In this document: one piece after another, positions 16,937-40,175 of the stretch | Numbering within the stretch: the first letter of the stretch is position 1 | Layout of the letters: every line of letters begins with the position of its first letter | Source of the DNA: a bacterium | Lineage (GTDB): Bacteria; Bacillota; Clostridia; Lachnospirales; Lachnospiraceae | Assembly: GCA_023666335.1 (NCBI GenBank) | Contig: JAMPCE010000011.1 | Span: 1-64,000 of the forward strand | DNA: 64,000 bases | Direction: 5' to 3' | The notes under the pieces: model-generated | Databases searched by the model: none | The model's input: only the letters and a program-made list of their open reading frames with translations | Told to the model about the DNA's origin: nothing | Made by a program: the position numbers and the translations under genes

Positions 16937-17251
16937 ATGTATGCGTATATGACTTCAAGGGTTCGTAATTACAATGAGCTAATAAATTTTTGTAAAATAT
17001 GTAAAGAACTAAGACCTATAAACGTGGAGATTATTAAAGAAATAAATTTGAGAAATGATGAATTATTTTTTTTCTTAAAGGATTTTAAAAGAAATCAAAA
17101 TTGGATGTTTCCATATGTGAATCGAATGAGTAAAATTGTAGATGGTAAGTGGCAATGCCTTTTATTAGCATCAGATAAGTTAAAAGCGCCAATTGTTATA
17201 TATTCAAACATGTGTTTGTATCCGCAATATGTTGGGATCTTACAAAAATGA
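16937..17251 (+). CDS. Small unknown protein heading the methyltransferase operon
   Basis: 104 aa, not recognised. The start is well supported by AAGGAG upstream. It is basic and aromatic, with FKRNQNWMFPYVNRM and CLLLASDKLKAPIVIYSN segments, and has no signal peptide, membrane helix, zinc knuckle or evident helix-turn-helix. It ends 13 bp before the methyltransferase start, so it is part of the same AT-rich operon. It could be a specificity or control subunit of the system, but nothing in the sequence proves that. Confidence 0.6.
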   Translation: MYAYMTSRVRNYNELINFCKICKELRPINVEIIKEINLRNDELFFFLKDFKRNQNWMFPYVNRMSKIVDGKWQCLLLASDKLKAPIVIYSNMCLYPQYVGILQK

Positions 17252-17264
17252 AAGCAGGTATACT

Positions 17265-18500
17265 ATGAATCAGTTTGATTATATTGATATTTTTGCTGGA
17301 TGTGGTGGTCTTTCTCTGGGGTTGCATAATGCGGGGTGGGAAGGTTTGTTTGCTATAGAAAAGAGTAAAGATGCGTTTGCCACGCTCAAATATAATTTAA
17401 TAGATAAAAGAAATCATTTTTGCTGGAATGAGTGGCTTCCACAGACAGAACATGATATTAATGAGGTAATTAAAACTTATAAGAAAGAATTAAAAGAACT
17501 TGAAGGTAAAGTGAATTTAGTTGTAGGAGGTCCGCCATGCCAGGGATTTTCAATGGCAGGTCAAAGGAAAAAGAATGATATAAGGAATGAATTAAGTAAA
17601 TCATATATTGAGTTTATAAGCATTGTGAAACCTAAAATATTGGTTTTTGAAAATGTTCAGGGATTTACAATTGGTTTCAAAGATGAAGATGATAAGAAGA
17701 GGATTCCTTTTTCAAAGATTTTAAAAGAGAAGTTAGAAAAACTAGGGTATTCTGTAGAGGGAAAAATGGTAGATATTTCTAATTTTGGAGTACCACAAAA
17801 AAGGAACAGATTTATTATGGTGGGTGTTTTGGAAGGAAATCCACATATTTTTTTTGAACTGCTTTACAATAATAAAAAGAAATTTTTAGAAAGCAAAGGA
17901 TTAAAGGAAAAAATTTCGGTTAAAGAGGCAATTGGAGATTTGCTGAAAGGAAATGGAACAGTACCTACTCCGGATTTTAAACATTATGAATCAGGTGTTT
18001 ATGGAGAAATAACAAGCAGCTATCAGAAGCTTATGAGAAAAGAAATGGGAAGTGTAGAGGGGACGGTTGCAGATAGCCATAGATTTGCGAAGCATTCAGA
18101 AGAAACGATAAAAATAAATAAGGAAATGTTACAAAAATGTCCTAAATTGAAACGAGTGACACCTAAGGATCATTTGGTAGAGAATCTGAGGAAACGGGGA
18201 GTAACCGTATTGGATGAGAATAAAGGCGCTCCTACAGTTACAGCACATCCGGATGATTTTGTTCATTACAGTGAACCGAGGATATTGACGGTACGCGAAT
18301 CAGCACGTATACAGAGTTTTCCGGATGACTTTGAGTTTAAAGGAAAGTATACGACAGGAGGACAATTAAGGAAAATTGAAGTACCAAGATGCACGCAGGT
18401 TGGGAATGCCGTGCCGCCTTTGTTTGCGGAACAGGTTGGACTTGCCTTAAAGGAGATGATAAAGAGTGGATCAGCGAGAGCAGAATTACCTTCAGTTTAG
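17265..18500 (+). CDS. DNA (cytosine-5) methyltransferase
   Basis: 411 aa from the ATG at 17265; an earlier frame start would overlap the preceding gene without a ribosome site. C5-methyltransferase motifs appear in order: I DIFAGCGGLSLGL, IV GGPPCQGFS with the catalytic Cys, VI ENVQGF, VIII QKRNRFIMVG, a variable target-recognition stretch, IX-like ARIQSFPDDF, and X QVGNAVPP. All catalytic motifs look intact. There is no restriction endonuclease or Vsr gene beside it; instead it overlaps a dual-GHKL ATPase gene by 35 bp. Composition is markedly AT-rich, suggesting transfer. Confidence 0.95.
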   Translation: MNQFDYIDIFAGCGGLSLGLHNAGWEGLFAIEKSKDAFATLKYNLIDKRNHFCWNEWLPQTEHDINEVIKTYKKELKELEGKVNLVVGGPPCQGFSMAGQRKKNDIRNELSKSYIEFISIVKPKILVFENVQGFTIGFKDEDDKKRIPFSKILKEKLEKLGYSVEGKMVDISNFGVPQKRNRFIMVGVLEGNPHIFFELLYNNKKKFLESKGLKEKISVKEAIGDLLKGNGTVPTPDFKHYESGVYGEITSSYQKLMRKEMGSVEGTVADSHRFAKHSEETIKINKEMLQKCPKLKRVTPKDHLVENLRKRGVTVLDENKGAPTVTAHPDDFVHYSEPRILTVRESARIQSFPDDFEFKGKYTTGGQLRKIEVPRCTQVGNAVPPLFAEQVGLALKEMIKSGSARAELPSV

Positions 18501-20781: not shown

Positions 20782-21743
20782 ATGTGTTTTTTAAAGTGCT
20801 ATGGTTTGAAGATCAGGTTTTGTGGAGACCTGCTTCGGAACGAAAAGTGAGAGATATTATTGAGAGACATAATCTTTTGCCTGAGATTATGTGGAAAAAG
20901 GGAGATGAAGAAGATATAGAGGATGAATTGAAGAAAGACTATGACTTAATTCTTATGGACTATGAACTTCGTGGGGTTACTGGTAATATTCTGATAAGGC
21001 AATTGCGGCAGTTGGAGATTTATACAGATGTGTTATTTTATTCTGGTAATTATGAAGGAATGGTAAGAGCACTATATAATATTAATAACGATGCTCCGAG
21101 TATAGATCCGATAGACGGAGTATATTTTTCCAGCAGAAAAAGAGAGGAATTATTTCCTAAATTACAGAAAGTTATTGATAAAATAGTAAGAAGAATGCAG
21201 GATATTGTTAGTTTAAGAGGTGTAGTGCTGGATAATGTAAGCGGTTTTGAAAATCAAATGCAAAACATACTTGTGTTAGCTATTAATAAGTTTACGGAAG
21301 AGCAAAAAAAGAGCCTTAATAATTATGCAAAATCTAAATTAGTGACACCTGCCAAGAATGACTATATTAAAAGGATAGAGGAGATAGAAAGTAATTCGCA
21401 AGTTTTACAAGCGCTTGTAGGAGCTCCTGATTATTTCCTGGATTCATATAAAAAAGCTCGTTTAATTGGAAAGGTAATTAACATTTTAACGAGTGAATAT
21501 GGTGTAGATATAAATGAGAAATATAAAAGGTTTGCGAATGCATATAACGATGAAATTATAAAGTATAGAAATGCATTAGGTCATGCAATGCGAAATAATA
21601 GTAACGACAGAGAAATTTATGTTGGAGAAATCGATGGAAAACCAATTAGATTTAATGAAGAATTATTTCGAAAGTTGCGAGCAAGTATAAATGAATATCA
21701 AATAGTAATAAATGAAATAGAGGATGCATTTAATGATATATAG
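20778..21743 (+). CDS. Receiver-domain protein with a helical C-terminus carrying a HEPN-like R-x4-H motif
   Basis: 321 aa. Residues 1-125 are a receiver domain: acidic pair E11/D12, phosphoacceptor Asp61 in LILMDYEL, Ser89 in LFYSGN, and Lys121 as possible switch lysine. The C-terminal ~190 residues are not a DNA-binding output domain; they are helical and contain R264-N-A-L-G-H269 (YRNALGHA), which matches the RNxxxH signature of HEPN RNases and toxins. The ATGA overlap with the kinase gene makes them a cognate pair. My inference is a phosphorelay-gated RNase effector; HEPN assignment rests on one motif and helix pattern. Confidence 0.72.
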   Translation: MNVFFKVLWFEDQVLWRPASERKVRDIIERHNLLPEIMWKKGDEEDIEDELKKDYDLILMDYELRGVTGNILIRQLRQLEIYTDVLFYSGNYEGMVRALYNINNDAPSIDPIDGVYFSSRKREELFPKLQKVIDKIVRRMQDIVSLRGVVLDNVSGFENQMQNILVLAINKFTEEQKKSLNNYAKSKLVTPAKNDYIKRIEEIESNSQVLQALVGAPDYFLDSYKKARLIGKVINILTSEYGVDINEKYKRFANAYNDEIIKYRNALGHAMRNNSNDREIYVGEIDGKPIRFNEELFRKLRASINEYQIVINEIEDAFNDI

Positions 21744-23216: not shown

Positions 23217-23246
23217 TTGACGAATTGCAATGGGGGGGGGTAGAAT
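23217..23246 (+). promoter_or_regulatory. Promoter with a G9 tract in its spacer (giant gene 1)
   Basis: -35 TTGACG (23217-23222), 18-bp spacer that ends in nine G (23232-23240), -10 TAGAAT (23241-23246). The start codon is 72 bp further. A homopolymer between the two boxes makes promoter strength depend on tract length, as in Neisseria porA. Confidence 0.75.
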
Positions 23247-23317: not shown

Positions 23318-26300
23318 ATGAGCGAATGGAAGAAGTTGTTTCAGGTGAGACGGATTCTCGCAGTCGCGCTGGCAGCAGCGATGGCGGTGACTTCGGCGCC
23401 TGTGACGGCGCAGGCTGCGTCGGATGATCCGACGGCGGCAGGGACAACTGCGGATCAGGAGACGGATATTTCTGATGCTGCAAAAGACAGTAAGACAGAA
23501 GACAGTGAGGGCGGAAGCGGGGATGCGCTTCCTGCGGAAGACGACGAAGCAGGAGAAGACGGCGATGCAGCGCCGGCGGCTGACGGCGGCGCCGGAACTG
23601 ACGCAGCGGATGCGCAGGCACAGGAAGATGACAAGCAGGACGCCGATGCTGCGGGAGCAGAGCAGCAGACTTCCGGCTCGGAGGCAGAACCGCAGGCGGA
23701 AACTGCGGTGCGGCAATACCGTTTCGTGTATGAGTGGGATAACGATTATGACAAGCAGACACAGTTTGAATACGGCTATGAGTGGAATGAAATTACTTAC
23801 GGCGGAAAGCTGAATGACACTTTTCTGGACAGATTCCGGCTGGCTGGCATAGGCGAAGAAAATGTCGCTGATTACGATCTCGGTAGTGATCTGAATAGCG
23901 AGGGAGCGAAAGAGATTCTCGGCACGATCACCTACCAGTGGTTTGAGGGCGACAAAGCGCTCGACACGCCCAGGAAGCTTAATGAGACGGGCGTAAATCC
24001 GATGGACGTCGGCGACTATAAGCTGGTGCTGAAACTTCCGGCAAAGGCGGGCGCAGACGGCTACGCCGAGGCGACAGGGGAGTTTCCTTTTTCAATCACC
24101 AAGGCAAGCGCGACAGTCTTCCTGAACAATCCGGCTCAGGTGAAGCCCGGAACGGCAGTCACAGCGGTGCCTCTGCCTGCGATAGGGTCTATATACAGCA
24201 ATGACCGCAGGGAGTTTGCAAAGAGCGATGTGAAAGTCACGCCGATCATCAAAGATGCGGAGACGGACGCAGTACTGACAGAGGGGACTCTGACGGCGGA
24301 CAAAGAGTATATCTTTACGGCAGCTGCGGAATTTGTCGGTGACAACAAAACGGCGTATGACAAAAACTATAGTCTTGGAGTCTGGTTTGACGACGGTATG
24401 GGCGACAGTGAAGTGAAGCTGACGATCGGCAGTTTAAAGGAGACCAGACTAAACGTCACGCTGGATCGGACAAAATATCCCGACTCCGCAAAAGTGACGG
24501 CGGATGTGGAAGTGACGGGAGGCGGACGTACCGTTCAGGTCGTAGAGGTGCAGAAGATAGCGGACGCCATAACGGGTGACAAACCTGCGTTCAATGCGAA
24601 TCTGGAAGAAAAGACGGCGGATGCGCCGGAAAAGTGGGAGACGCTTACGCAGGAGGACAGTCTGTTTGAAAGTGTCTGGTATACGGTGGTTGATTATAGT
24701 GTGCCCAAGACAGCGGCGGGCAAGACGACCTGCGACCTGACGCTTGGCGGCATACTGGACGCTGCGCCCACAGCGACAGGCGCATATGTGTACAGATACA
24801 GTTATAAGGGCGATCAGAAAGAGTATGCGGAGTGCTATGCGGATATTCTGGTGATCGTTGAGATTCCGGAGATCATCGTGCAGCCGACGGTGGCGGAGGG
24901 TGCGGTATTCCGGGGTGGACAGTCAATTGAAGATGTGCTTGCGCAAATTGACTATGAACTGCCCTATGCGGATGGCAGAACAGCCGACGGGAAAGCGCAG
25001 ACATATCCGAAAGCGGAGGATATGTGGGGCGTGCTCCCCGGTGCGGGAACGCAGTTCTACCAGCCGGAGTTTGAGCTGATCGAAGTGGCAAAAGACGGTA
25101 CGGAGACGACTTATAAGGCTGGTTACAGAAGCGGCAGCAACGTGCTGCCATATGACAAAGACGCCAAATACTATGTACGTTTTAACGGTAACAAAACGGT
25201 ATATGATTTATCCGGAAAAGTGTATTATGAGCGCGGTTCGCATAGCGAATATATCTACGCGACAAAAGCGATCATGGACGGCGTTGACTCTATGGATCCC
25301 GACACCTGCGGCTTTAAAGTGGTGACGGATGCGGATGTCAATAAACAGCATCAGGTAGAAATCACTGTCGCGGCGAAAGGCAGCATGATCGTCACAGACG
25401 AGATCACCAAGAAGATCACTGAGAGCGGTATGTCCTCCGAGAAAGTGAAAGGGCTGGATTTCTTCACGAAGACTTACGACGGGCAGAGGATCTTCTTAAA
25501 TCACGCGGATTATAAGAAAGCGCAGTTAAAGAGCGGCGAGACGACCGAGGCGCTGGCGGGTACGGATCTTACTTATGGTTGGTATGAGAGCTGGTATTCC
25601 TATGATGAATTGACGGCTGCTGACAGCAGCGTTACGGCGGAAGAGTTGAAGTCAAACTGGAGAGGACCGTATGGTATGATCAGTCCCGTTGATGCGGGGG
25701 TATACCGTCTGCGGATCACCAATAGCATGGCGGAGCCGGCGGATCTCTATTTTGTGATCAAAAAGCAGGAGCTCACCTTAGATTTGTCGGCGGAGTTAAA
25801 GACAAACGGGATTACGATTTATGTTGCGGAGAACGATAATCCGGGCAGCGAACAATTTATTATAAACCGCTACTTTGATGTTTTGGAGGGCGGCTCGTCG
25901 CTTGCGGCAGCGGCGGATCTGGAGGGTAAGCCGACCCGGTCGGAGGACTGGAAGAATTGGGCGCTTTTCAGAGATGCTGATTATGCTTATCGCGTAGACT
26001 GGGGAGTTTACGAGAAACAGACACAGATTGTAAACGGTCAGGAGGTCGATCAAAAGGACGAGAGCGGGAAGACGGTTTACGAGCGTTATCAGACTGGTCA
26101 AATTACGAGAGATGCGGGTAAATATGCCATAAAGGCTACCGCTGTCAGCACCCTCGGCAATGCGAATAATTTCATGATAAAAGACGGCTGGAAAGATCTT
26201 GTGATTCCCATCACCGTAAAAGATATGGGGACAAAGGAGATTCGCTTTGCAGGCGTTACGCCGGATGCGCCGCTCGAAATCGAAAAGACCTATGACGGCG

Positions 26301-29300
26301 AGTCCGTTTACAGCCTGATCCAGGATAAATTGGCGGCATACAACGCACCGATCACGCTGAAAGCCGACGGTAAGACAAAGGACACGGACGTTACGGGTGT
26401 GGAATTGACTTATACGGTCGAGCGGGAATATAGCGCTGATATTGAAGAGAGGACATATACAGGGCAGCTGCCTGTTGAAGCGGAGGAATGGGATTGGACG
26501 AAAGACAGCGGTACCTATAAGATCTCTGTCTGGTTCATGGGAAACGATGAGTACGCATTCTGCGCTTACGATCTGGCGGTAATAACAGTATACAAGCGAG
26601 GGCTGACCCTCGTTCTGCCTGCGCTGGAAAAGACCTACGAGACGGGCGAGGCGGTAAAAGCGGCGCTGGATGATGCGGAGACAGCGTTCAAAGCGCTGCC
26701 GAATGCCGGGCTGAAAGGCGATATCGTAGAGGCGGATCGGGAATACTTTACCAGAACCATACTCCCGAACGGCGAGCAGGGATTTCCGGTATGGTATCGG
26801 TATAATGAGGACGCCGATCCGGAGGAGGGCGAATCGGAGTGGGAATATTATGCGCCTGCGTTCCAGATCTACGATGTGTGGGGAGACGCGGGAGAAGGAG
26901 AGGGTTACAGCTATTACAACCACGGAGAGAACACGACATTTTTGAGCACGGCGGGCAATAGATATACGCTCAGACTGGATTATGATTATTATGAAAGTGA
27001 AATGGAGGTTGCGTTGAGCGGCAGCGCGGCGGTCAACTATTATGTCTCTTATACGGAGACGGATCCCGCCTCCACCCCGATCAAAGTGAGCAAAGGCGCA
27101 GCGCGTGTCCTTTTGAATGGGGGCTGGTTGGACAGCACGGACAAGATCAGCGACGGAACGGCGCCGATCGTCAAAGAGCATCAGGTGACGGTGCAGGATG
27201 CGATCCCTTATGTTTATTCCTATGTTGATTCGCCGGGGGATGATGAGCATGAGGGAAATATCGTCACGATCGGCATCGAGCTGCCGAAAGAGTATTGGAA
27301 TGAAAGCTCTGAGTTCTACTGGTCGCAGGCGTCCTACGAAAAGTCCATCAAAGACAGCGCCGGAGAGAATCTGATCGGCTCGATCAATCTTGATCCGTGG
27401 GAATATGAGGGTTTAAGCTTCGTATACAACGCCACGAGCGCGATAGCGAATGGGGAGGATCTCACGTTCAGCATCCGTTGGAAGGCTGATCATGTCGAGA
27501 AATTTACGATCCTGTTCAGCAAAGCGGAGGCACTCGGCGATCTGAGAAATGCCGTGGCGCCGAAGTCTCTGGCATTCAACGGCGCGCTGACTTCGATGGT
27601 AGTGGGGCAGGAGCAGGAGCTGGACGTCAAGATCACGAAAGAGCAGATGAGTGATGTGATCTGCCTGGGCTATCAGGTGACTGCAGGCGGCGAGGGCAGC
27701 GGCGGTGTGCTGCATGTCAACGAGCGCGGTAAGGTGACTGCCCTGAAAGAGGGAAAAGCGACCGTAGAAGTATTCCCGATGCGTCTCGTAAACGGGAAGA
27801 GAGAGCGGATCGAAAAGGATGCAAAGGGCAAGGCGGTCAAGACGGCAAAGGTCAATATCACCGTCAAGAAAGTAATTGCGCCGAAGATTTCCAAGGTGAC
27901 GGCGCATGACGATTACGCGGTGGTGCAGTATGCGCTGCCGAACAAGAACGACGGCTATCGCAGAGAGATCTATGTGATGGAGGGTAAGAACGTCAAGGCG
28001 CAGACTTTTGAAACTGCGATCGCGGGCATGAAGAATGGGCGGTGGCAGGGCAGCTTCGTGACAGCGCCGATCTTTGTCACTTATCAGGAGGAATCTAAAA
28101 AATATGACAGAGATCGGGAGTCAGGCTATCGGGTTTATGACAGTAAGAAAGCGGCGTGGACGAATACCGTCGCCGTACCGATCGACGGGTTGACGCCCGG
28201 CAAGAAAGACTACACGGTCTATGTGCGCAGTGTCAGCAAGGTGCGCAGTCTGGAAGATGACTGCAAGGTGACGCTGTGCGGCGCCGGAAACACGAAGAGC
28301 TTTGCGACCACGCTGACCGAAGCGTCAGGGCTTATCGCGACCCTGAAAGGCGTGGGCGTAGCCGGGCTTTCCGCTGATGAGTATGACAGCGATGCTTACA
28401 CGGATTATACGGATCGTGAAACCCTGCCCACAGCCGATGAGATCAGAGATCAGGTCCGAGAGGCGGTCAAGGACGAGAGGGCGGTTGAGATCGTGTATGA
28501 GGTGCCGCTCTCCAAAAAGTCGGTGCAGCTCTCTCTCGAAGCCCTGTTTTTAGATGCGGCGGAAGATGCGCACTACGAGGAACTGGCGTTAAAGGGAGAC
28601 GCGAAAAAGAAATATGCCAACCCGAAACTCTCATATTATTTCGTAGATTATATGTACGATGGCTATGATGCGTATAACAACAGCCATATAACGGAAGGAT
28701 ACGGAAATACGACAAAGAGCGGGATCGGGACGATCGCAAAGAACGGAAAGGTCACGCTGAAAGGCGTCGGTGAGGTTCGGATACGGGCGATAGATACCGC
28801 AAGCGGCCTTACCGCAAACAGCATCCGCCTCCGCGTTACGGCAAAAGCGACCGGCATAACAGCCAGAAAAGCCAAGATGGAGGTCGGACAGCGCATCAAG
28901 CTGACGGATCTGGTGGATTACAAAGAGGGAAAAACGAAACTCGGGCAGAACTATAATGACAACTATGCGGGCATCGACGTGCAGGCAGCAAAAGCGTCTC
29001 TGGGTGAGAACAGTCATTTCACGATCACGGACGACGGCTATCTGGTTGCCGAAAGCGTGGGCAGCGCGCAGTTTACCCTGACAGACCGCTATATCGAGGG
29101 CAGCAGCGCGACCATCAAAGCCACCGCGAAAGCGTTGAGCGGCGTGAAGAACCTGAATGCGGTCGATGTGCTTGACAAGCGTTTCGACGTCAGATTTGAG
29201 ATGAATCCTTATGCGGAAGCATATCGGATCAATATCAAAGATGCCAGAGGTTCCCTGATCCGAGGCATTTATGTGGAGAATCTTCCTTTTAATTATACGA

Positions 29301-30424
29301 AGGACGGCAAGACGCAGATCCTGTGGGATGGCGAAAATAAGACTGCGAACGGCTGGAATGCTTCTTTTGTGATTGCGGATGAAAGTACAGGCGATGGCGA
29401 TGATGACTGGGGAACACAGTGGGTAGACTGGTATGACGGCTATCGAGGGAGCGATGATGAGTGGAGCGAAGTAAGCTTCGACCATCCACGCGAAAATTGG
29501 TATGCGTATAACAGCTCCTGCTACGCGAACGCGATCAACGGTAAGATGAACCTGACCTACCGCATTGGCGGTTTGACGCAGTCCTCCAAGTATACGGTGG
29601 AGGTGACGACGCTCTATAAGGAGCAGCAGTCAGGAAAACCGGTGACGAAGACAGTGAGCACGACGAAGCTTCCGGCTTACGATTATGTGATCACCTCTAA
29701 GCTCGATCCGGATGTGACCTATGCAGCCGGTATGGAGATAACCTTAAAAGACGGCAAGACGCTGATCTCCGAGGCGGGATTTGTGTCCGGAAACACCTAT
29801 AGTCTGGCAGCAAAGCAGGGCAACGGAAATGATGACGGAGGGTATCATGCGGCTGCGCGCTATGCCGGAACCGATACCCTGACATGGAGCAGTTCCAACA
29901 AAAAGGTAGCCACGGTAACACCCACGTCGGGCGGTTACAGCGCATCCCTGAAAGCCTTAAAAGACGGCGAGACGGTCATCGAAGTGAGATCCGCCGTGCG
30001 CAAGGGCGTGATCGCGCGATATACCATCCACGTTTCTACGGTAGGCGACGCTTATCTGGGTAACGATTACTACGGCGAGAACGAAGAGCTGCGCGGGGAT
30101 TCCGACGATACGCCGACAAAGGATCCTGTCGTCGTGAAGATGACCGTCGGCAAGCCTGTGGCGGTAGACTGGCAGGGCGGTGCGTTCCGGTTTGAGTTTA
30201 CGGCGCTGGAAGCGGGAACCTATCAGCTCTGTAAGATCGAGAAAGGACAGACGAGCGTATTGTCTGTCCGCGCGGATAATACATGGGATGGGGTTACGAT
30301 ACGACAAAACATGGAGGTCAGCGGCAAGGTGCCGCGCGTTGTGACAGGGTATGTCATGACAAATGAAAAGGAGAACCTGCCTGCATTCAACGGCAGACTG
30401 GTAATCAAAAAAATCGTAGATTAG
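23318..30424 (+). CDS. Giant secreted multi-domain Ig-like surface protein 1
   Basis: 2368 aa from ATG 23318 (AAGGAGGA seven bases upstream). A signal peptide (RRILAVALAAAMAVTSAPVTAQA) is followed by a ~90-aa acidic Ala/Asp/Glu-rich region. The body is a chain of beta-rich modules: MBG/YDG-like segments (KTYDG, EKTYDG), a BIG2-like domain around LHVNERGKVTALKEGKA, fibronectin-III-like parts (YRREIYV), a second BIG2-like domain (SSNKKVATV) and a terminal PPC-like beta sandwich. No LPxTG, SLH, choline-binding or C-terminal membrane anchor is visible, so it is released or held by another factor. Close paralogue of the next gene. Likely adhesin or surface-layer component; function unproven. Confidence 0.82.
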   Translation: MSEWKKLFQVRRILAVALAAAMAVTSAPVTAQAASDDPTAAGTTADQETDISDAAKDSKTEDSEGGSGDALPAEDDEAGEDGDAAPAADGGAGTDAADAQAQEDDKQDADAAGAEQQTSGSEAEPQAETAVRQYRFVYEWDNDYDKQTQFEYGYEWNEITYGGKLNDTFLDRFRLAGIGEENVADYDLGSDLNSEGAKEILGTITYQWFEGDKALDTPRKLNETGVNPMDVGDYKLVLKLPAKAGADGYAEATGEFPFSITKASATVFLNNPAQVKPGTAVTAVPLPAIGSIYSNDRREFAKSDVKVTPIIKDAETDAVLTEGTLTADKEYIFTAAAEFVGDNKTAYDKNYSLGVWFDDGMGDSEVKLTIGSLKETRLNVTLDRTKYPDSAKVTADVEVTGGGRTVQVVEVQKIADAITGDKPAFNANLEEKTADAPEKWETLTQEDSLFESVWYTVVDYSVPKTAAGKTTCDLTLGGILDAAPTATGAYVYRYSYKGDQKEYAECYADILVIVEIPEIIVQPTVAEGAVFRGGQSIEDVLAQIDYELPYADGRTADGKAQTYPKAEDMWGVLPGAGTQFYQPEFELIEVAKDGTETTYKAGYRSGSNVLPYDKDAKYYVRFNGNKTVYDLSGKVYYERGSHSEYIYATKAIMDGVDSMDPDTCGFKVVTDADVNKQHQVEITVAAKGSMIVTDEITKKITESGMSSEKVKGLDFFTKTYDGQRIFLNHADYKKAQLKSGETTEALAGTDLTYGWYESWYSYDELTAADSSVTAEELKSNWRGPYGMISPVDAGVYRLRITNSMAEPADLYFVIKKQELTLDLSAELKTNGITIYVAENDNPGSEQFIINRYFDVLEGGSSLAAAADLEGKPTRSEDWKNWALFRDADYAYRVDWGVYEKQTQIVNGQEVDQKDESGKTVYERYQTGQITRDAGKYAIKATAVSTLGNANNFMIKDGWKDLVIPITVKDMGTKEIRFAGVTPDAPLEIEKTYDGESVYSLIQDKLAAYNAPITLKADGKTKDTDVTGVELTYTVEREYSADIEERTYTGQLPVEAEEWDWTKDSGTYKISVWFMGNDEYAFCAYDLAVITVYKRGLTLVLPALEKTYETGEAVKAALDDAETAFKALPNAGLKGDIVEADREYFTRTILPNGEQGFPVWYRYNEDADPEEGESEWEYYAPAFQIYDVWGDAGEGEGYSYYNHGENTTFLSTAGNRYTLRLDYDYYESEMEVALSGSAAVNYYVSYTETDPASTPIKVSKGAARVLLNGGWLDSTDKISDGTAPIVKEHQVTVQDAIPYVYSYVDSPGDDEHEGNIVTIGIELPKEYWNESSEFYWSQASYEKSIKDSAGENLIGSINLDPWEYEGLSFVYNATSAIANGEDLTFSIRWKADHVEKFTILFSKAEALGDLRNAVAPKSLAFNGALTSMVVGQEQELDVKITKEQMSDVICLGYQVTAGGEGSGGVLHVNERGKVTALKEGKATVEVFPMRLVNGKRERIEKDAKGKAVKTAKVNITVKKVIAPKISKVTAHDDYAVVQYALPNKNDGYRREIYVMEGKNVKAQTFETAIAGMKNGRWQGSFVTAPIFVTYQEESKKYDRDRESGYRVYDSKKAAWTNTVAVPIDGLTPGKKDYTVYVRSVSKVRSLEDDCKVTLCGAGNTKSFATTLTEASGLIATLKGVGVAGLSADEYDSDAYTDYTDRETLPTADEIRDQVREAVKDERAVEIVYEVPLSKKSVQLSLEALFLDAAEDAHYEELALKGDAKKKYANPKLSYYFVDYMYDGYDAYNNSHITEGYGNTTKSGIGTIAKNGKVTLKGVGEVRIRAIDTASGLTANSIRLRVTAKATGITARKAKMEVGQRIKLTDLVDYKEGKTKLGQNYNDNYAGIDVQAAKASLGENSHFTITDDGYLVAESVGSAQFTLTDRYIEGSSATIKATAKALSGVKNLNAVDVLDKRFDVRFEMNPYAEAYRINIKDARGSLIRGIYVENLPFNYTKDGKTQILWDGENKTANGWNASFVIADESTGDGDDDWGTQWVDWYDGYRGSDDEWSEVSFDHPRENWYAYNSSCYANAINGKMNLTYRIGGLTQSSKYTVEVTTLYKEQQSGKPVTKTVSTTKLPAYDYVITSKLDPDVTYAAGMEITLKDGKTLISEAGFVSGNTYSLAAKQGNGNDDGGYHAAARYAGTDTLTWSSSNKKVATVTPTSGGYSASLKALKDGETVIEVRSAVRKGVIARYTIHVSTVGDAYLGNDYYGENEELRGDSDDTPTKDPVVVKMTVGKPVAVDWQGGAFRFEFTALEAGTYQLCKIEKGQTSVLSVRADNTWDGVTIRQNMEVSGKVPRVVTGYVMTNEKENLPAFNGRLVIKKIVD

Positions 30425-30450
30425 TCACGGCAGAAAAGTGATTTACAAAA

Positions 30451-30486
30451 AAGCGGCACACTCGGAAAAGGGTGTGCCGCTTTTTG
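30451..30486 (+). terminator. Rho-independent terminator after giant gene 1
   Basis: AAGCGGCACAC and GTGTGCCGCTT form an 11-bp stem around CTCGGAAAAGG-type loop bases, followed by a T run. It separates the two giant genes into independent transcription units. Confidence 0.9.
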
Positions 30487-30525
30487 GCGCAGGAAAAAAC
30501 AGGAAAAAACAGGCGTCAGAAAGCA

Positions 30526-30556
30526 TTGACAAAATCATAGGGGGGGGGGGTAGAAT
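30526..30556 (+). promoter_or_regulatory. Promoter with a G11 tract in its spacer (giant gene 2)
   Basis: -35 TTGACA (30526-30531), 19-bp spacer ending in eleven G (30540-30550), -10 TAGAAT (30551-30556), start codon 54 bp further. The TAGAATGG following the G tract is identical in giant gene 1. With 19 bp the spacer is two above optimum, so the sequenced state may be weak; loss of two G would give 17 bp. Confidence 0.78.
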
Positions 30557-30609
30557 GGACTTTGTAACGATATTTCCCGAAATGGAAAAAGAAAACAGGA
30601 GGAGACAAA

Positions 30610-33600
30610 ATGGGTAGAACAAAGAAGCTATATCAGGTCAGAAGAATCCTGGCTCTGATTTTAGCGGTAGCTATGTCAGTCACCATGATACCCGCGACAG
30701 CGATTGCCGCGCCGGCTGATGGTGTGGCGGACGAAGGCGCAGCGGTTTCTACAACATCGACGGAAACGCCGGATGATGTGGATGGGGACGCTGTGGACGC
30801 GGATGCGGGTACAGACGCCGGGGAGGGCGTCACGACCGACACGACAAATACCGCAGCCGATACTGCGGTTGACACAGGAGACGACGCGGATGCGGCTGAC
30901 ACGACGAATCCCACGGCTGATGAGCCGGCAGCGCCTGCGGCGTCGAAGCCGGTCTATGAGATTCTGACGGACAACATGGAGACGACGGTGGTCTATACCG
31001 GGTCTTTTCCGTTTAATTTGTACAGCATCGTGTTGAAGAAGACGCAGGATGGCAGCACAACGGAAACGCCAAACGCTGTAGGAAGGGGTGACGTGACCGC
31101 TTCCTGGAAGAAGCAGGGCGCGGCGGCTGCGATGACCACGGATCCGGTCGATGTGGGCGTTTATGAGCTGACATTGACCTATGCTAAGGTTGAGGGCGAG
31201 CATGACGGCGCGGAGGCGACAGTGACCTGTGAGATCACGAAAGCACCGGTGACGATCGTGATCAACGGATATAATGATGCTAGCCGTATCACGGTAAAGC
31301 CGGGCACGGCGGCAAAGGATGTAAAGCTGACGGATGCAGACACGGTCGATGTTTATGCGGCTGGCGGCAATGTCGGTGCAGAGTATATCACGCTGGAGAT
31401 TACCGGCGTCCGCAATGCGATCACGGGCGAAGCGGTAGGCGGTGACGAGAAGCTGGCGAGAAACGGCGATTATGTGGCGGATATCAAACCGTCATGGAAA
31501 GCGAATCTGCCCGCAGAGGATCAGGCGAGATGTGCGAATTATGAGCTGCCGGAGTCCTTTACGGCGGACATCGAAGCGGCGGATCTGGTCGAAACGCAGA
31601 TCGAAGTAAAGCTGGCGGATAAGTGGAAGACAGCGGAAGATCCGGCAGGGACGGTCGTTCTGAAATCCTATAAGGAGAACGAGCCTGCGGATGCGCCGAA
31701 AGAGACGGACGACTATACATACGAAGTACAGTATTGGGATGATACGACAGGCGAGTATAAGAAGCTGGCGGACGCGGCGGCAGCCGGCGAGTGGGCGGAA
31801 TATGACGGCTGTGAGAAAGACAGCGACGGAAAGGTAAAGGCGCCGACGAATGCGGGCGACTATACCTATGTTCTGGTATATGAGGATGCGGACAGCGTTT
31901 ATGATACGGCTGTTGCATACATACCTGTCAGGATCACGCCGGCAGTCCTGAAAGTGGAAGCGGCGAATACGGCTGCATTGGAAGTTCTGGAAGGAACGAC
32001 TGCGCAGGAGGTTCTGGCGCAGGTGAAATATAAGGTGACGCTGGACGAGGCGGACGTTACCACAAAGATGAAAGGCGGCAGCGTATGGGGAACCGGATTT
32101 GACGATTCCAACGTAAGCCAGATCTACGAGCCTTTGTTCACGCTGCAGGTGTCTGCGGACAATGGCACGACCTATGAGACGGTCACGGATAAGGATTATG
32201 CGTTAGAGGGAAGTGCGGGTAAGAAGAAATACCGCGTGATCTATGACGGTAAGAAAGCAATCTACAATGCGGACGGCTCTTACGCGCATGTAACGGATGT
32301 CAATGACAGGGCAAATATCAACGGCGTTGACGCCAACTATGAGACGGATACGACGCCTACGGCGGCTGACAAAGCGCTCGAGGTGACCGTGACGGACGGA
32401 ACGGAAGTGACCGTCGATCTCTCGGCGCTGTTAGGAGACAAGGCGGGCGCGAAGACGATCGCTGATTTGACGGCGAAAGTGTATGACGGCAACCCGATCT
32501 ACAGAGTCAGAAATGACTATAAGAGCAAAGTGAAACTGCTGGGCAAGGACGGCGCGGATGCGGGCATCACACCGTCGTTAAGAGCGCTCGACTGCGCGTG
32601 GTATCAGTATCGTCAGTATGACGATATCGATTTGCTGGATGCGCAGATCGAGGACGAGAATCAGCGTAACGGATTTGGAGGATATTATGATCCGGCGGAT
32701 GACAATTACTGGACGGCGTTGAATGCGACTACCATCGCACCGAAGGACGCGGGCGTCTATAAGCTGGTTGTCACTTATACAGGGCAGAAAACAGACGGCA
32801 AGCTCTATTATGCAAAAGAGCCTGCTGTGATGTACTACGCGATCGACCCGAGACAGATCAAGGTCGAGCCGACAGGCGAATATAAAGTGTTGGAAGGCCG
32901 CAACGGATACGATCTTCTGGACAAGAGGCATGACAGCAGCACCTATACGCTGACATGTGAAAACGCAGAGGGTGATGCGATCGTAGCGGGCGAGAACGTG
33001 GAGCCTTTCTGGCAGGTCATCGAGACCAGAACGCAGGAGGGTTCTGCCAATCCGGTCACATACGGATGCTGGGAATCTGGCGACTTTAACTTTGAGTTCA
33101 ACGAAAAGGTAACGTATGAACTACAGGGCTCAGGCTTGGGCTTTGACGTCTACGGGGAAGAAGACATCATTTCCTATGATGGTTTCACAATAGCGGACAA
33201 CTACACATGCTTCAAACCTGCGGGAACAGAAGAGGTTGGAGAGGCAAACGCAGAAGGTAAGAAGCGGGTGGAGCGTAAGGAGGATACTTTCTTAAACACG
33301 AAAGCATCCATCACCGTGGCAAAGATGGGTGAGAAGAAGCTGACGGTGGCGTTTGATGCCGATGCGTGGGGGACCAAAGAGAAAGTCTATGATGCGAAAG
33401 CCTACACCGACACGGAACTGATCGGAAGTGCGGTAACGGTAACGGACGAGACAGGAGCCGCGATCACCGGAGATGCGCCCGACATTCGGTATGAGGGCTA
33501 TATCGGGACTGACGGCTACGGCGAGACGAAAGAGATCCGGGACGTCGGAACATACACCGTGTACGCTTTCTTTGACGGCAGCGAGAAGTATGCGCCGTTG

Positions 33601-36600
33601 AAGAGCCCTGCGGAACCGAGTGATCCCTGGAATCCGGATGAATGGGGCGTAAAGCTCGGCACATTCACGATCACGCCGCGCCCGATCACCCTGAAAGCAG
33701 TTCTGTCGGATACCTACACGGCGGGCGTCTATGCTTCCAGCGTATTGAACGCGATGAAGGGCAGCATCACCGTTGACGGCAAAGCAGACGACGATGCGTG
33801 GGCGTTCACGGAATATTATGATGACGATTACGACGAATATTTTATGGAAGCCTGGTCCGAAGAGGGTCATGGTAATAAATACGATCCCGAGTTCGTAATT
33901 TATGAAAAGGGAGCGAAGAATCCGATCAGCTATACTCGACTCAAGAGAGATACAGAGTATGAAGTGCGTTATGACGAGGATGGCGACTACATGAGGCGCT
34001 TCTACCGCTGGGACAATAATGCGGGAGATTATAACTATGATGCTCCCGACTACACCGTCTCTCAGGAGTCGGTAGCGGAGTTTAAGGTTGTGCCGGGTAA
34101 CTCTGGGATTAGCTCGAGAAGCTATACTACTAATGGCAGCTCGATTGATTCAATTGCAATTAAGACGAAGAACGATGCCGCGGATTCCATGAAACGGACC
34201 GTGACGATGCAGGAGGGCATCGGATTTTCCTCTGCTGCATACTATGATGAAAATGGCGAGAGAGTTAGTTTAGAGGGTAATCTTGCAGCGTTCCGGATCA
34301 CGCCGCCTGCGGAATATAACGGTTCTATGCCTGAAACGGCGATGTATCGGAACGAGATCGCGAAGATCGGCGGACATATTGTAAGTGACATTAGTTCCGG
34401 TTTCACAGTGATCTTTGACGCCAGGGAAGGCGATAAGACATTCCCGATCCGTTGGGAGGACGGTTATGTCGAGACCTATACCCTGAAATTTAAGGATGCA
34501 GTAAAGCTGGGCGATCTGAACAATGCGGTAGCGCCGAAGTCGCTGGCATTCAATGCACCCGAAAAGAAGATGGCGGTCGGTTCGTCTCAGCAGCTCGATG
34601 TGAAGATCACGAAAGTGCAGATGAGCGATGTGATCTGCCTTGGTTATAAGAGCAGCGATGAGAGCGTACTGCATGTCAATGAAAACGGTTATGTAACAGC
34701 CTTAAAGATCGGTAAGGCAAATATCACGGTCTTCCCGCAGCACAAAGTGAACGGGAAGCTGGTAAAGATCGACAATGCGAAGGAAGTATCCCTCCAGATC
34801 ACGACCACGAAAGTGACGGCGCCGAAGAAAGTCAAAGTGACGACGCACGGCAGCGGAGATGCTGATGCAAATCTGTCCTATGATACGCCGAAAGACGGAT
34901 ACCGCCGTGAGATCTATGTGGTAAACAGTAAGAGCAGTTCCCTCAAGAAAGCGGCTGATTTCGAGAAGAAGCTTGCCGGTACGAGCGAGGACAGCTGGAA
35001 AGAGAATCAGTGGCAGGGCACGTTCGCCATTGCGCCGATCTATGTGGACAGCGCGGACGAGGCGCTCAACCGTCGGAGAAACGGCTATGCGGCACAGCTG
35101 AAAGGGCTGGGGACCAACGGCACTTATACGATCTATGTCAGAAACGTATGCGCGGCGCGTACCCTGACGGGTGGGTCCGAAGTTACCAATGATGCGGTGA
35201 ACGCGAGTGCGGCAGGAACCGTGGTGAGCCTTAAGACGCTGAAATCCGAGCAGCTGTCGTTGAGACTGGAGCTGGATGCACAGGAAGGCATCACTGGCGG
35301 CGGTTATAAGGAAGATGGAATCTGGCAGTATGACAATCATTATGAAATCGATCTTTCCAAGATCAAGAAAGGTATCGTTACCAGCACGACCTATGGTCAG
35401 TTCTATACGATGCCGAAAGACGATGCGGCACAGAGCGATGACACAGAGTGGATCAAGCTTCCGCTGAGTGCAAAGACGGATAAGGATGCCTATGAGAATC
35501 CGAAGCTGGAGTATACGCTGGCGGGCTGCTGGAATAGTAAGACACAGCGTTATGAATATGGCACGAAGAACAATATCGCAAGCATCGACAAGAAAGGTAA
35601 GATCAAGATCACCGGAATGACGGTTATGAATGACGATGATTCCGATCGTAACCTGATTGTCAGAGTGCGCGATCTGCAGACCAACGGGATGGCTTACGCA
35701 TATCTGCGTATCGTTGCGCAGGCGGATTCCGTAGCGGCTGCAAAGAAGAATGTTACCCTGACCGTAGGGGAGACGCTGTACCTGAATGAGCAGGGGCTGC
35801 TTTCCTATAAGATGGGCAAACAGAAACTGACGAACTACTACTATCCGGATATCGATATCGCTGCGGTGAAAGCTGCGATCAAGGACCAGAAGCAGGAGAA
35901 GTTCTTTAAGCTGGAGGACGATCGACTGACAGCGATCGCGGGCGGCGGTTCCCTGAAACTTCCTCTGACGGACAGAACCGTAGCCAGAGAGTCCGGCAAG
36001 GACAAAGCGACCGCGACGATCACCGTGAAGTCCAAGGATCTGACGGCGGTCAAGAAGATCAAAGCGTTTGACGTGACCAACGAACAGTTCGGTCTGACCT
36101 TTACCTATGCGGGCGGCGCGGATGCGTTCCTGTTAGAGATTTCTGATGCCGCCAATAAGACAATCTACAGTCAGAAGCTGTGGAGAGATTCGGATGCATA
36201 CAGAATATACTTTGACAGCAATCATAAGCGTGTAAAAGATACATACAGGATTGATTCTCGGCAGATTACAAACTATGTGAAATTGGCGAAAGAGACCCAA
36301 TACACTGTCAAGATTACGGCGCTGTATGATGCGCTTGCGGCGAAGCCGGCGACTGCGAAAGTGAAGACCACGAAGATTCCGGCTGTAGGTGACTATCTTC
36401 ATGATGACTATGATGAGGATTATGAATATAGTACCGGGAAGCTGATCAGTAAAGAGTACGGCGGTATGTCGATCGTTGTAGGCGAGTATGGTGATGAGGA
36501 GAAAGGTACAAAAACAAGAAAGTTACAAGAAAACTACGAGTATGACGATGATGACAATCTTGTGGGCGCTCCTTCTCTTAACATCCTCTCCGGCAACAGC

Positions 36601-38820
36601 TACACGCTGACGGCGGAGACATGGAGCAATCGCGGACGCATCAGTGATACGCTCGTGTGGACCGTGGATAATGCCAAGGTAGCGACAGTCAAAGCGGCGG
36701 CAGGCACCTACAGCATCACGATGAAAGGCGTGAAGCCGGGTAATACGACGCTGGAAGTGAAGTCCAAGATCCTGGGCAACAAAGTCATCGCCAGATACAG
36801 GATCTATGTGACGGCAGTAGGGGATGCTTATAAGAATGCAAACCGCTACTACGGCGATAACGAGCCGGAAGAGTTTACGGGCGCGTCCCTGAATAACGGG
36901 AATAATATAATCTATCTGCCGCTGAGCGTAGGCGATGCCAGAAAAGTGACGGCAGATCAGACCACATACTTTAGCTTCACAGCGCCTGAGAGCGGAAAAT
37001 ATGCAGTATCCGCTGGGGGGGGGGTCGGAGGAACCATCTATCTGGGCTCCACAAGCTACCGAGGCTATAGGGATCTCGGCTGGATGACAGAAGGACAGAG
37101 TGTTACTTTCTCTTCCTATGTCCGCGGTGCAGATTACAATACTTCCGGCAATATCTCCTACTATGTCGAGGTAGAGCAGACGCAGCGCATGGAATCGATG
37201 AGCGGCGTGGGCGAGCAGACAGTGACCGGAACGGGCGATTACGGCGTCTTTGAATTTAAGGCTCCCGCGACCGCGTACTACCAGTTCTCGCTGAAAGGCA
37301 GCGGAGATAGTTCGAGGTATCTGTATCTGTACGATGATTTGAGCGACGCGACTTCGGGGAACAGCTATTGGGCTAAGGATAGCGGAACTACGGTTTCGTG
37401 CCAGATCAACCAGGGCGACAGCGTATGGGTGCGGACCAGCAGTCAGTTGACTAATGGCAGCGAGTATACCTTAAAGGCGGAGAAGATCAGTGAGGACATT
37501 GTCCTCGCTGGTTCCCAGCCGGTAACTGTGGCGGCGAACGGTAAGAAGTATCTGACATTGGATATCATGGATAGCGGATGGTATTCATTCGCTGTTGCGT
37601 CGGAGCAATCTGTTGATGCAAAATTTACAGTCACGGAGAGGACTGGTAGTTCCAGTCAGTCCAATAACGGCACTGAGTTTGCATTCAATGAGCAGCTGAC
37701 AGCAGGCAGCAGGGTATCTCTGGAGATCACGAACGGGCAGTCCGATGCGGTTACCGTGACGCTGACGTCCAAGAAACTGGAGTTTACCACCGTGACGGAA
37801 GGCGTGGAGACGACTGTGACGGAAGGAGCATACTATCAGTTTACGGCGTCGACCGCAGGAACCTATGCGTTCTCTGAGATAGACGGCGGGACGCTCTATG
37901 TGGACGACAATGAGGAATATGTAGTTGGTAAGAACTATCTCGGGTATTTTGTAACAGTATCTCAAGATACTACGAAAACAAAAGAACTGGAAGCAGACCA
38001 GACCGTATATATGAAAGTAGACACCAGTGAAGCGACAAATTGCAAATTTCTCATTGAGAAGGTCAGCAGTCAGGAGCTGAGTCTGGACGGAGACGGTGTT
38101 TCCGTAACCTTGGATGCCGGTAAGATCACGCATGTGACGTTTACCGCACAGCAGGATGGGTTTTATGAGTTCACGAAAGAGGATGCAGCGGCGGCGAGCG
38201 TCAGAGCTTTGACCGGTGATGACATCAGTGTCACTTATAAGCTTAACAGTGAACGCGAGAAGACAGCATCTTTCCCGTTTAAGCTCTACTTAGCGGAGGG
38301 CGATACGATCCGTTTGGAGATCACGAACGGCGGATCAGCTTCCGCCAGCTTTACGGTGAAAGCTGCTACGTCAGAGATTGGGGAAGTGCCGCAGAACGAA
38401 GAGTTCACATTGCCGGCAGATTCGGACACTTTCTATAAGTACACAGTAACTGAGGCAGGAACATATACATTCCGTATGTTATCAAATACCTTAGGTCCTC
38501 GGGCTATGTATATTTACGACAATGAGTCGGATTGTGTGAATAAGACGAGTTCGACGCTTGGCGAGAGTACGTCAGCTACTAACTTAGGGAATAATCAATA
38601 TGGCTGTGAGATTGTGCTGGAGAACATGGCGGCTAATACGCCGGTATATGTGCGGCTGCACAATGGGGCGCTGTATGTCCCTGTAAGCGTAACTTTCACG
38701 GCTACAAAGAATGATTCCACAAGCAGCACGGACCCGGATGAAGGAGACGGCGGCGACAGCGGCAGCGAGACTCCGGGCGGCGACAATGGCAGTGAGGGTT
38801 CAGAAACCGAAACCGAGTAA
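30610..38820 (+). CDS. Giant secreted multi-domain Ig-like surface protein 2
   Basis: 2736 aa, paralogue of the preceding giant protein. ATG after AGGAGGAGAC. Signal peptide (RRILALILAVAMSVTMIPATAIA), Thr/Asp/Ala-rich acidic linker (~30-115), MBG/YDG-like modules (KVYDGNPIY, KVYDAKAYT), the shared NAVAPKSLAFN/BIG2 block at ~1300-1400, fibronectin-like and BIG2 parts. Unlike protein 1 it has about six C-terminal PPC-like beta modules (~2100-2700; YFSFTAPESGKY, YQFTASTAGTYAF, YKYTVTEAGTYTF) and a Gly/Ser/Asp/Glu tail. No sortase or SLH anchor is seen. A G10 tract lies in the first C-terminal module. Regulation is probably by poly-G slippage in the promoter. Confidence 0.82.
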   Translation: MGRTKKLYQVRRILALILAVAMSVTMIPATAIAAPADGVADEGAAVSTTSTETPDDVDGDAVDADAGTDAGEGVTTDTTNTAADTAVDTGDDADAADTTNPTADEPAAPAASKPVYEILTDNMETTVVYTGSFPFNLYSIVLKKTQDGSTTETPNAVGRGDVTASWKKQGAAAAMTTDPVDVGVYELTLTYAKVEGEHDGAEATVTCEITKAPVTIVINGYNDASRITVKPGTAAKDVKLTDADTVDVYAAGGNVGAEYITLEITGVRNAITGEAVGGDEKLARNGDYVADIKPSWKANLPAEDQARCANYELPESFTADIEAADLVETQIEVKLADKWKTAEDPAGTVVLKSYKENEPADAPKETDDYTYEVQYWDDTTGEYKKLADAAAAGEWAEYDGCEKDSDGKVKAPTNAGDYTYVLVYEDADSVYDTAVAYIPVRITPAVLKVEAANTAALEVLEGTTAQEVLAQVKYKVTLDEADVTTKMKGGSVWGTGFDDSNVSQIYEPLFTLQVSADNGTTYETVTDKDYALEGSAGKKKYRVIYDGKKAIYNADGSYAHVTDVNDRANINGVDANYETDTTPTAADKALEVTVTDGTEVTVDLSALLGDKAGAKTIADLTAKVYDGNPIYRVRNDYKSKVKLLGKDGADAGITPSLRALDCAWYQYRQYDDIDLLDAQIEDENQRNGFGGYYDPADDNYWTALNATTIAPKDAGVYKLVVTYTGQKTDGKLYYAKEPAVMYYAIDPRQIKVEPTGEYKVLEGRNGYDLLDKRHDSSTYTLTCENAEGDAIVAGENVEPFWQVIETRTQEGSANPVTYGCWESGDFNFEFNEKVTYELQGSGLGFDVYGEEDIISYDGFTIADNYTCFKPAGTEEVGEANAEGKKRVERKEDTFLNTKASITVAKMGEKKLTVAFDADAWGTKEKVYDAKAYTDTELIGSAVTVTDETGAAITGDAPDIRYEGYIGTDGYGETKEIRDVGTYTVYAFFDGSEKYAPLKSPAEPSDPWNPDEWGVKLGTFTITPRPITLKAVLSDTYTAGVYASSVLNAMKGSITVDGKADDDAWAFTEYYDDDYDEYFMEAWSEEGHGNKYDPEFVIYEKGAKNPISYTRLKRDTEYEVRYDEDGDYMRRFYRWDNNAGDYNYDAPDYTVSQESVAEFKVVPGNSGISSRSYTTNGSSIDSIAIKTKNDAADSMKRTVTMQEGIGFSSAAYYDENGERVSLEGNLAAFRITPPAEYNGSMPETAMYRNEIAKIGGHIVSDISSGFTVIFDAREGDKTFPIRWEDGYVETYTLKFKDAVKLGDLNNAVAPKSLAFNAPEKKMAVGSSQQLDVKITKVQMSDVICLGYKSSDESVLHVNENGYVTALKIGKANITVFPQHKVNGKLVKIDNAKEVSLQITTTKVTAPKKVKVTTHGSGDADANLSYDTPKDGYRREIYVVNSKSSSLKKAADFEKKLAGTSEDSWKENQWQGTFAIAPIYVDSADEALNRRRNGYAAQLKGLGTNGTYTIYVRNVCAARTLTGGSEVTNDAVNASAAGTVVSLKTLKSEQLSLRLELDAQEGITGGGYKEDGIWQYDNHYEIDLSKIKKGIVTSTTYGQFYTMPKDDAAQSDDTEWIKLPLSAKTDKDAYENPKLEYTLAGCWNSKTQRYEYGTKNNIASIDKKGKIKITGMTVMNDDDSDRNLIVRVRDLQTNGMAYAYLRIVAQADSVAAAKKNVTLTVGETLYLNEQGLLSYKMGKQKLTNYYYPDIDIAAVKAAIKDQKQEKFFKLEDDRLTAIAGGGSLKLPLTDRTVARESGKDKATATITVKSKDLTAVKKIKAFDVTNEQFGLTFTYAGGADAFLLEISDAANKTIYSQKLWRDSDAYRIYFDSNHKRVKDTYRIDSRQITNYVKLAKETQYTVKITALYDALAAKPATAKVKTTKIPAVGDYLHDDYDEDYEYSTGKLISKEYGGMSIVVGEYGDEEKGTKTRKLQENYEYDDDDNLVGAPSLNILSGNSYTLTAETWSNRGRISDTLVWTVDNAKVATVKAAAGTYSITMKGVKPGNTTLEVKSKILGNKVIARYRIYVTAVGDAYKNANRYYGDNEPEEFTGASLNNGNNIIYLPLSVGDARKVTADQTTYFSFTAPESGKYAVSAGGGVGGTIYLGSTSYRGYRDLGWMTEGQSVTFSSYVRGADYNTSGNISYYVEVEQTQRMESMSGVGEQTVTGTGDYGVFEFKAPATAYYQFSLKGSGDSSRYLYLYDDLSDATSGNSYWAKDSGTTVSCQINQGDSVWVRTSSQLTNGSEYTLKAEKISEDIVLAGSQPVTVAANGKKYLTLDIMDSGWYSFAVASEQSVDAKFTVTERTGSSSQSNNGTEFAFNEQLTAGSRVSLEITNGQSDAVTVTLTSKKLEFTTVTEGVETTVTEGAYYQFTASTAGTYAFSEIDGGTLYVDDNEEYVVGKNYLGYFVTVSQDTTKTKELEADQTVYMKVDTSEATNCKFLIEKVSSQELSLDGDGVSVTLDAGKITHVTFTAQQDGFYEFTKEDAAAASVRALTGDDISVTYKLNSEREKTASFPFKLYLAEGDTIRLEITNGGSASASFTVKAATSEIGEVPQNEEFTLPADSDTFYKYTVTEAGTYTFRMLSNTLGPRAMYIYDNESDCVNKTSSTLGESTSATNLGNNQYGCEIVLENMAANTPVYVRLHNGALYVPVSVTFTATKNDSTSSTDPDEGDGGDSGSETPGGDNGSEGSETETE
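37015..37024 (+). repeat. G10 homopolymer inside giant gene 2
   Basis: Ten G encode Gly2136-Gly2138 and the first base of Val2139. Losing one G leads to TGA within about 22 codons (37085-37087); gaining one leads to TAG within about 16 codons. Either product would stop near residue 2155 and lack the last ~580 residues, that is most of the C-terminal beta modules. Confidence 0.85.
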
Positions 38821-39161: not shown

Positions 39162-39314
39162 GAGCGTGCGTTCGCACATTCTGGCAGTTTCTGCCGTTTA
39201 CTCAACTACTATTAACAAGCGGCAGAGATGCAGGGATCGGGACGCAGCTTCCATAATGATTTCCCGGACTTAGTTTTGCAGAGAGTCTGCCGTACAGACA
39301 AAGGAGGGTACATT

Positions 39315-40175
39315 ATGGAACCAATCAGAAGAGAGGACACAGAAATGGATTTGATACGCGAAGACGGAATGATGCGTGATCTGACCCATGACGACCTAAT
39401 ACGAATGGGTCTGGACAGAAAGGGAAAATGGCAGTATATGGTGAAGGATCTCGAGAGGCTTCCGGAAGGCGTATATGCGGAGCTGATCGACGGAGAAATT
39501 TTTGTTCGGATGACTACCCCCGCCACGATCCATCAGGAATTGGTAGGTGAATTATTTTTTCAGATTAGTCTCTATATCAGGCGAAAGAAAGGAAAGTGCC
39601 GTGTCTTCCCTGCCCCGCTCGGTGTGGAGATTAAGAACGATATCCATAACTTTGTCATACCGGATATCGCGCTGATCTGTGACAAGGACATCCTGGATGA
39701 AAAGGGGTGTCATGGTGCACCCGATCTCGTGATCGAGATCGTCTCCTCCAACAGAAAACTGGATTATGTGCATAAACTTGCCCTTTATAAGGAAGCAGGT
39801 GTCCGGGAATACTGGATCGTCGATCCGAAGCATGAGCGGGTGACGGTCTATGATCTGGAACATGGGAAAGAGCCGATGCTTCACTCATTTTCGGAGCGGA
39901 TTAAGGTGGGGGTATACGACGACCTATATCTGGATATCTCAGATCGAAGAAGTGCTTTGGAAGAAGCTTTAGAAACGGAGAGAAAGGCGTCCCGTGAGGA
40001 AGGTCATGCGGAGGGTCATGCACAAGGTTTGGCGGAGGGAGAAACGCGCCTTGCGCAGCTGACATCCTATTTGTTGCGGGAAGACCGCATGGATGACCTG
40101 AAAAAAGCGCTTGCGGACAGCCGGTATCGAGAAGAATTACTGCAGCGGGAGCATATACCGGATTCCATCGAGTGA
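39315..40175 (+). CDS. Uma2-family (DUF820) PD-(D/E)xK nuclease-like protein
   Basis: 286 aa from ATG 39315 (AAGGAGGG upstream). Residues ~35-215 match the Uma2 fold: YAELIDGEIFVRM, VIPDIALICD, APDLVIEIVSSNRKLDY with the acidic active-site residues, and KLALYKEAGVREYWIVDP with the Lys. The C-terminal ~60 residues (EEGHAEGHAQGLAEGE, then RYREELLQRE) form a charged helix like that of Rpn-type mobile nucleases. Uma2 proteins are common in accessory regions, and their biological role is not settled. It is flanked by a 20-bp direct repeat, which suggests it arrived as a unit. Confidence 0.85.
   Translation: MEPIRREDTEMDLIREDGMMRDLTHDDLIRMGLDRKGKWQYMVKDLERLPEGVYAELIDGEIFVRMTTPATIHQELVGELFFQISLYIRRKKGKCRVFPAPLGVEIKNDIHNFVIPDIALICDKDILDEKGCHGAPDLVIEIVSSNRKLDYVHKLALYKEAGVREYWIVDPKHERVTVYDLEHGKEPMLHSFSERIKVGVYDDLYLDISDRRSALEEALETERKASREEGHAEGHAQGLAEGETRLAQLTSYLLREDRMDDLKKALADSRYREELLQREHIPDSIE

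Follow-up and report, generated by a model that had tools for sequence, protein, structure and literature searches.

The present study shows that gene 2, a gene for a giant secreted protein in a gut-type Lachnospiraceae bacterium, is preceded by a promoter whose two hexamers are separated by a spacer ending in a run of G, and that this layout is genuine and not a product of chance. The poly-G promoter very probably acts as a random switch, either of the on/off kind or as a volume control. Judged from the sequence, there is a high likelihood that promoter-spacer phase variation driven by slippage, on the principle of porA and fetA, operates in this genus of the Lachnospiraceae.

Results

The poly-G promoters of gene 2 and its paralogues

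In the window (the whole stretch of 64,000 nucleotides that was analysed), the -35 hexamer TTGACA of gene 2 is located at 30526-30531 of the forward strand and fits the sigma-A consensus. It is followed by AAATCATA (30532-30539), a homopolymer of eleven G (30540-30550; the count is the value of a draft assembly, in which an error of at least one G is possible) and the -10 hexamer TAGAAT (30551-30556). The spacer (30532-30550) is 19 bp long. Both hexamers are near-consensus with the G tract between them, and direct reading of the sequence agreed exactly, in coordinates and in letters, with the arrangement claimed in the earlier note. Downstream by 53 nt begins the gene 2 ORF (30610-38820, forward strand), which codes for a 2736-aa secreted protein with a signal peptide, Ig-like/Big_2 domains and C-terminal beta-rich repeats; its ribosome-binding site, AGGAGGAG, was recognised by eye at 30597-30604. 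A scan for sigma-70-type promoters with spacers of 16-18 bp found none as an alternative for gene 2, and it recovered the promoter of gene 1.

Gene 1 (23318-30424, forward strand, 23318 being the most likely start) codes for a 2368-aa secreted protein. Its promoter, identified from the sequence and by the promoter scan, consists of the -35 hexamer TTGACG (23217-23222), an 18-bp spacer made up of AATTGCAAT and a run of nine G (23232-23240), and the -10 hexamer TAGAAT (23241-23246). By BLASTP (E 3e-19, 25-31% identity) the proteins of gene 1 and gene 2 are distant paralogues, which upholds the paralogy proposed for them, and each gene has its own poly-G spacer promoter. It had also been claimed that the sequence after the tract is common to the two genes while their -35 sides differ; indeed, TAGAATGG is present in both and the -35 sides are unlike. 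The exact string of nine G followed by TAGAATGG occurs three times in the own genome, at gene 1, at gene 2 and at a site on contig 22. The contig-22 site belongs to a third paralogue (L014; about 2060-2080 aa), which has a G10 tract at 8999-9008, an 18-bp spacer and the same TAGAATGG. Two more such promoters, both having G10 and TAGACT, are found where contigs 57 and 84 end. A Uma2-family gene (39228-40175) adjoins gene 2, and a similar-looking ORF (L003, 1674-2354) adjoins the third paralogue.

Between gene 1 and gene 2 there is a terminator hairpin of the Rho-independent type (30448-30485, forward strand), as had been noted earlier, with a perfect 14-bp stem, a T run, a folding energy of -27.9 kcal/mol and z = -6.4. 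Such a strong terminator lies upstream of gene 2, and therefore gene 2 probably depends on its own poly-G promoter. The repeat of the terminator was the only inverted repeat found within 30430-30620 and none flanks the gene 2 promoter, so that an invertible promoter (inverton) was rejected. Elsewhere in the window, the stretch 17193-21743 may be a defence or modification cassette: it codes in succession for a C-5 cytosine methylase, a protein carrying a pair of GHKL-type ATPase domains and one that weakly resembles response regulators.

The giant proteins and a second tract inside gene 2

Signal peptides were seen by eye in the proteins of both genes, and Pfam found Big_2 in gene 2 alone of the two. 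Residues 108-460 of gene 2 were modelled with confidence (pLDDT 87) as a chain of Ig-like beta sandwiches; S-layer and adhesin domains are among the best structure matches of this model, at low TM-score. The model of the C-terminal repeats was of low confidence (pLDDT 59), and its fold matches are usable for the description 'beta-sandwich' alone. Searches with the giant proteins against PDB and NCBIfam returned no informative sequence relative, and inspection by eye for LPXTG or another anchor revealed none. The product of gene 2 is a secreted protein, as indicated by its signal peptide, Big_2 domain and Ig-like sandwich model, and we infer that the giant proteins are secreted and probably surface-associated. 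The 'surface' state of which the earlier note spoke is likely in the light of the signal peptide and the Big_2/Ig-like domains, but an anchor that would go with it was not found in the proteins.

Gene 2 contains a second tract, which the earlier note missed along with the third paralogue, namely a run of ten G within its reading frame (37015-37024, forward strand) from codon 2136 on. It was computed that a gain or loss of one or two bases at this run leads to stops at aa 2152-2159, and slippage here would remove about 580 residues. The contig-22 paralogue has its natural end near the equivalent of gene 2 residue 2089 and the alignment of the homologue in G053 stops at residue 2134, so short forms occur in nature. 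The G10 coding run was absent from the aligned homologues with long C termini. A switch between a long and a short product of gene 2 by way of this tract is plausible.

Conservation of the arrangement and differences in tract length

Of 60 genomes of the genus, 13 contain homologues of P0002. Among the 22 homologues with a visible start, a number that includes the three own-genome copies, 16 have a promoter spacer with G9-G13 located 14-116 nt before the ORF; one of the others has G7 and five have no tract, from which it follows that the tract is not essential. The -10 hexamer and the first transcribed bases are conserved among the homologues (roughly TARAATGGttttaaGT), and since TAGAATGG belongs to this family-wide start region, it was rejected as a special link between gene 1 and gene 2. 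Spacers range from about 17 to 22 bp and tract length varies too, so a change of 1-2 G crosses the usual optimum. Orthologues keep the layout but differ in tract length and spacer, as independently slipping tracts predict, and the earlier proposal that the two paralogues switch independently is thereby supported in part. The clearest orthologous length difference was observed between G003 and G049, which have the same gene with the same neighbours: the promoter reads TTGACA ATTTTA G11 TG TATGAT in the former (spacer 19) and TTGACA ATTTTAA G13 TG TATGAT in the latter (spacer 22). This pair can be taken as the strongest evidence for the tract as the moving part. Other orthologous tracts range from G9 to G11, the differences being between species and not between strains. 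Correlation of the length of the non-G spacer with tract length gave no clear compensation (r = -0.12).

A loose pattern (TTGA-N8-12-G7-N0-6-TANNNT) was searched in a sample of 98 relatives with the reversed pattern as control. Matches were found in 41 of the 98, about 100 in all (90 sites), as compared to about 21 for the control (table sum). TTGACA was present at 62 of the 90 sites, though only TTGA had been demanded, and the -10 boxes were mostly TANAAT, though the pattern required only TANNNT; this unforced excess indicates that the loose-pattern sites are real promoters. When 150 genomes from across the family were searched with a strict pattern, 13 of them contained sites, 19 in total, and the reversed control matched nowhere. 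The pattern also matches two records titled complete genomes. The arrangement is thus real and scattered over the Lachnospiraceae, and it is denser in this genus.

Spacer length and promoter strength

In the own genome, perfect-consensus promoters have spacers of 17 bp in 23 of 42 cases and of 16 bp in 10 of 42, while the poly-G promoters of relatives have their mode at 19 bp (30/71). Spacers of at least 18 bp were found in 48 of 71 poly-G promoters as against 8 of 42 ordinary ones (Fisher P ~7e-7), a comparison which is indicative, the genome samples and the hexamer stringency being different. The spacers of gene 2 (19 bp) and gene 1 (18 bp) lie close enough to the ordinary peak of 16-17 bp for small tract changes to cross the optimum. 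The mode at 19 bp can be read in two ways: either these promoters were in a weak state in most assemblies, or the optimum is longer when the spacer is rich in G. For this reason the earlier suggestion that 19 bp means a weak state now is uncertain; the ordinary peak at 17 bp speaks for it and the peak of poly-G promoters at 19 bp against it.

G tracts in the genome and at contig ends

The own genome (3.1 Mb) contains about 35 tracts of G9-G11. They fall within or ahead of genes of the contingency type. Among the products of these genes are giant secreted proteins and a giant flagellin, a chemotaxis receptor, a sulfatase-domain membrane protein, and enzymes such as acyltransferases, a glycosyltransferase and a pullulanase-like amylase. 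G10 followed by TATATT is located upstream of a giant flagellin-like ORF of about 1814 aa with flagellin N and C domains (L017, contig 95, 32869-32878), and the same combination lies upstream of the secreted pullulanase-like amylase (L019, contig 21, 51055-51064).

It was found that five of the approximately 35 tracts are no more than 30 bp away from a contig end, where 0.08 were expected (P ~2e-8), and eight pattern matches in the genome collection lie within 60 bp of one. Contigs 49, 68, 73, 81 and 84 of the own genome (L028, L035, L036, L037, L016) end at G10-G11; TTA-G10-TAAATA is common to contigs 49 and 81, which probably join there. Such breaks at tracts could be caused by mixed tract lengths but equally by poor sequencing of G runs, as reported earlier (PMC9187656), and are suggestive only. 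MutS1 and MutL are present in the own genome, and missing mismatch repair was accordingly rejected as the cause of the many tracts; the rate of slippage would be lower than in organisms free of mismatch repair.

Discussion

G runs gain and lose bases readily. During replication DNA polymerase could slip on the run of eleven G of gene 2, adding or removing G residues, and this would alter both the distance and the rotational phase between TTGACA and TAGAAT. The altered spacing would in turn change how often the vegetative RNA polymerase initiates transcription of the giant secreted protein, and the terminator upstream would make gene 2 reliant on this promoter. Since there are separate tracts at gene 1 and at the third paralogue, members of one clone may differ in which giant proteins are made. 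The coding G10 tract could add a further slip-dependent choice, between the full-length product of 2736 aa and one of about 2155 aa. A wider version can be offered only tentatively and is on balance doubtful: a genome-wide poly-G system might exist in this genus, in which spacer tracts and in-frame tracts jointly control the giant Ig-like proteins, the promoter and coding tracts of gene 2 might form in series a switch of amount and length, and a G-rich spacer might move the optimum to about 18-19 bp.

It could be argued that the promoter is real but that its G run in effect does not change, slippage being suppressed by mismatch repair and the spacer being tolerated or setting a fixed strength. 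MutS1 and MutL are present, and the clustering of poly-G spacers at 16-19 bp is compatible with fixed working promoters. However, orthologous promoters with the same flanks vary in G count, similar tracts occur within the reading frames of other genes of the own genome, and many species keep G9-G13, although so mutable a form would be needless in a fixed promoter; a static run is unlikely. Far less probable is a promoter of the MerR type, which would stay silent until its 19-bp spacer is untwisted by an activator, the G run being incidental. Spacers of 19 bp are typical of MerR-regulated promoters (PMC11049809; PMC9303308) and are also the mode of the poly-G promoters, but the gene 2 spacer is mainly homopolymer and contains no dyad, the terminator is the sole inverted repeat nearby, and the spacers of homologues extend over 17-22 bp instead of being fixed at 19-20 bp. 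Least probable of all is that the G run is an artefact of assembly or sequencing, or a chance homopolymer: the assembly is a draft, sequencing through G runs is difficult and several contigs stop at them, and yet independent assemblies of many species show the same arrangement, the pattern also matches two records titled complete genomes, and the reversed control gave no match in 150 genomes. A promoter spacer changing its length by slippage remains the preferred reading.

Campylobacter genomes have dozens of G9-G11 tracts each, in genes for surface structures, and in number the approximately 35 tracts of the own genome resemble such a repertoire. The tracts of Campylobacter are mostly intragenic and the genus is not known to possess MutSL, whereas the own genome has MutS1 and MutL and many of its tracts lie in promoter spacers. 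The nearest likeness in mechanism is found in Neisseria, where a homopolymer between -35 and -10 of porA (a G run) and fetA (a C run) sets the transcription of surface proteins by its length (PMC5320596), and a C run in the promoter of opc exerts similar control (PMC3447861). A G or C homopolymer in the promoter is common to these cases; the organism and the genes here are unrelated, gene 2 has a coding G tract in addition, and the effect on expression is one that we infer. In Bifidobacterium breve, a gut commensal, runs of G10/G11 at sortase-pilus loci slip measurably, both in culture and in the mouse, and with two such loci four combinations arise; the authors also mention further G tracts in promoter spacers (PMC9187656). 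The pilus switch is translational and in-frame, unlike that of gene 2, which would be mainly transcriptional and concern giant Ig-like proteins. Invertons of gut bacteria, including Clostridia, also switch surface proteins at random (PMC11892184, PMC5903667), but by a different mechanism, the gene 2 promoter having no flanking inverted repeats. A limited literature search, in which absence is no proof, turned up no account of promoter switches of the poly-G kind in Lachnospiraceae. What is unusual in comparison with known systems is the lineage, how densely promoters of this type occur, and the two layers of control that gene 2 may have.

In gut Clostridia, the random switching that has been described relies mostly on DNA inversion. 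Switching by G runs would be overlooked by searches for invertons and is poorly handled by short-read assembly. If the G runs slip as expected, a large genus of the Lachnospiraceae would have a second, independent route to cell-surface heterogeneity within clones.
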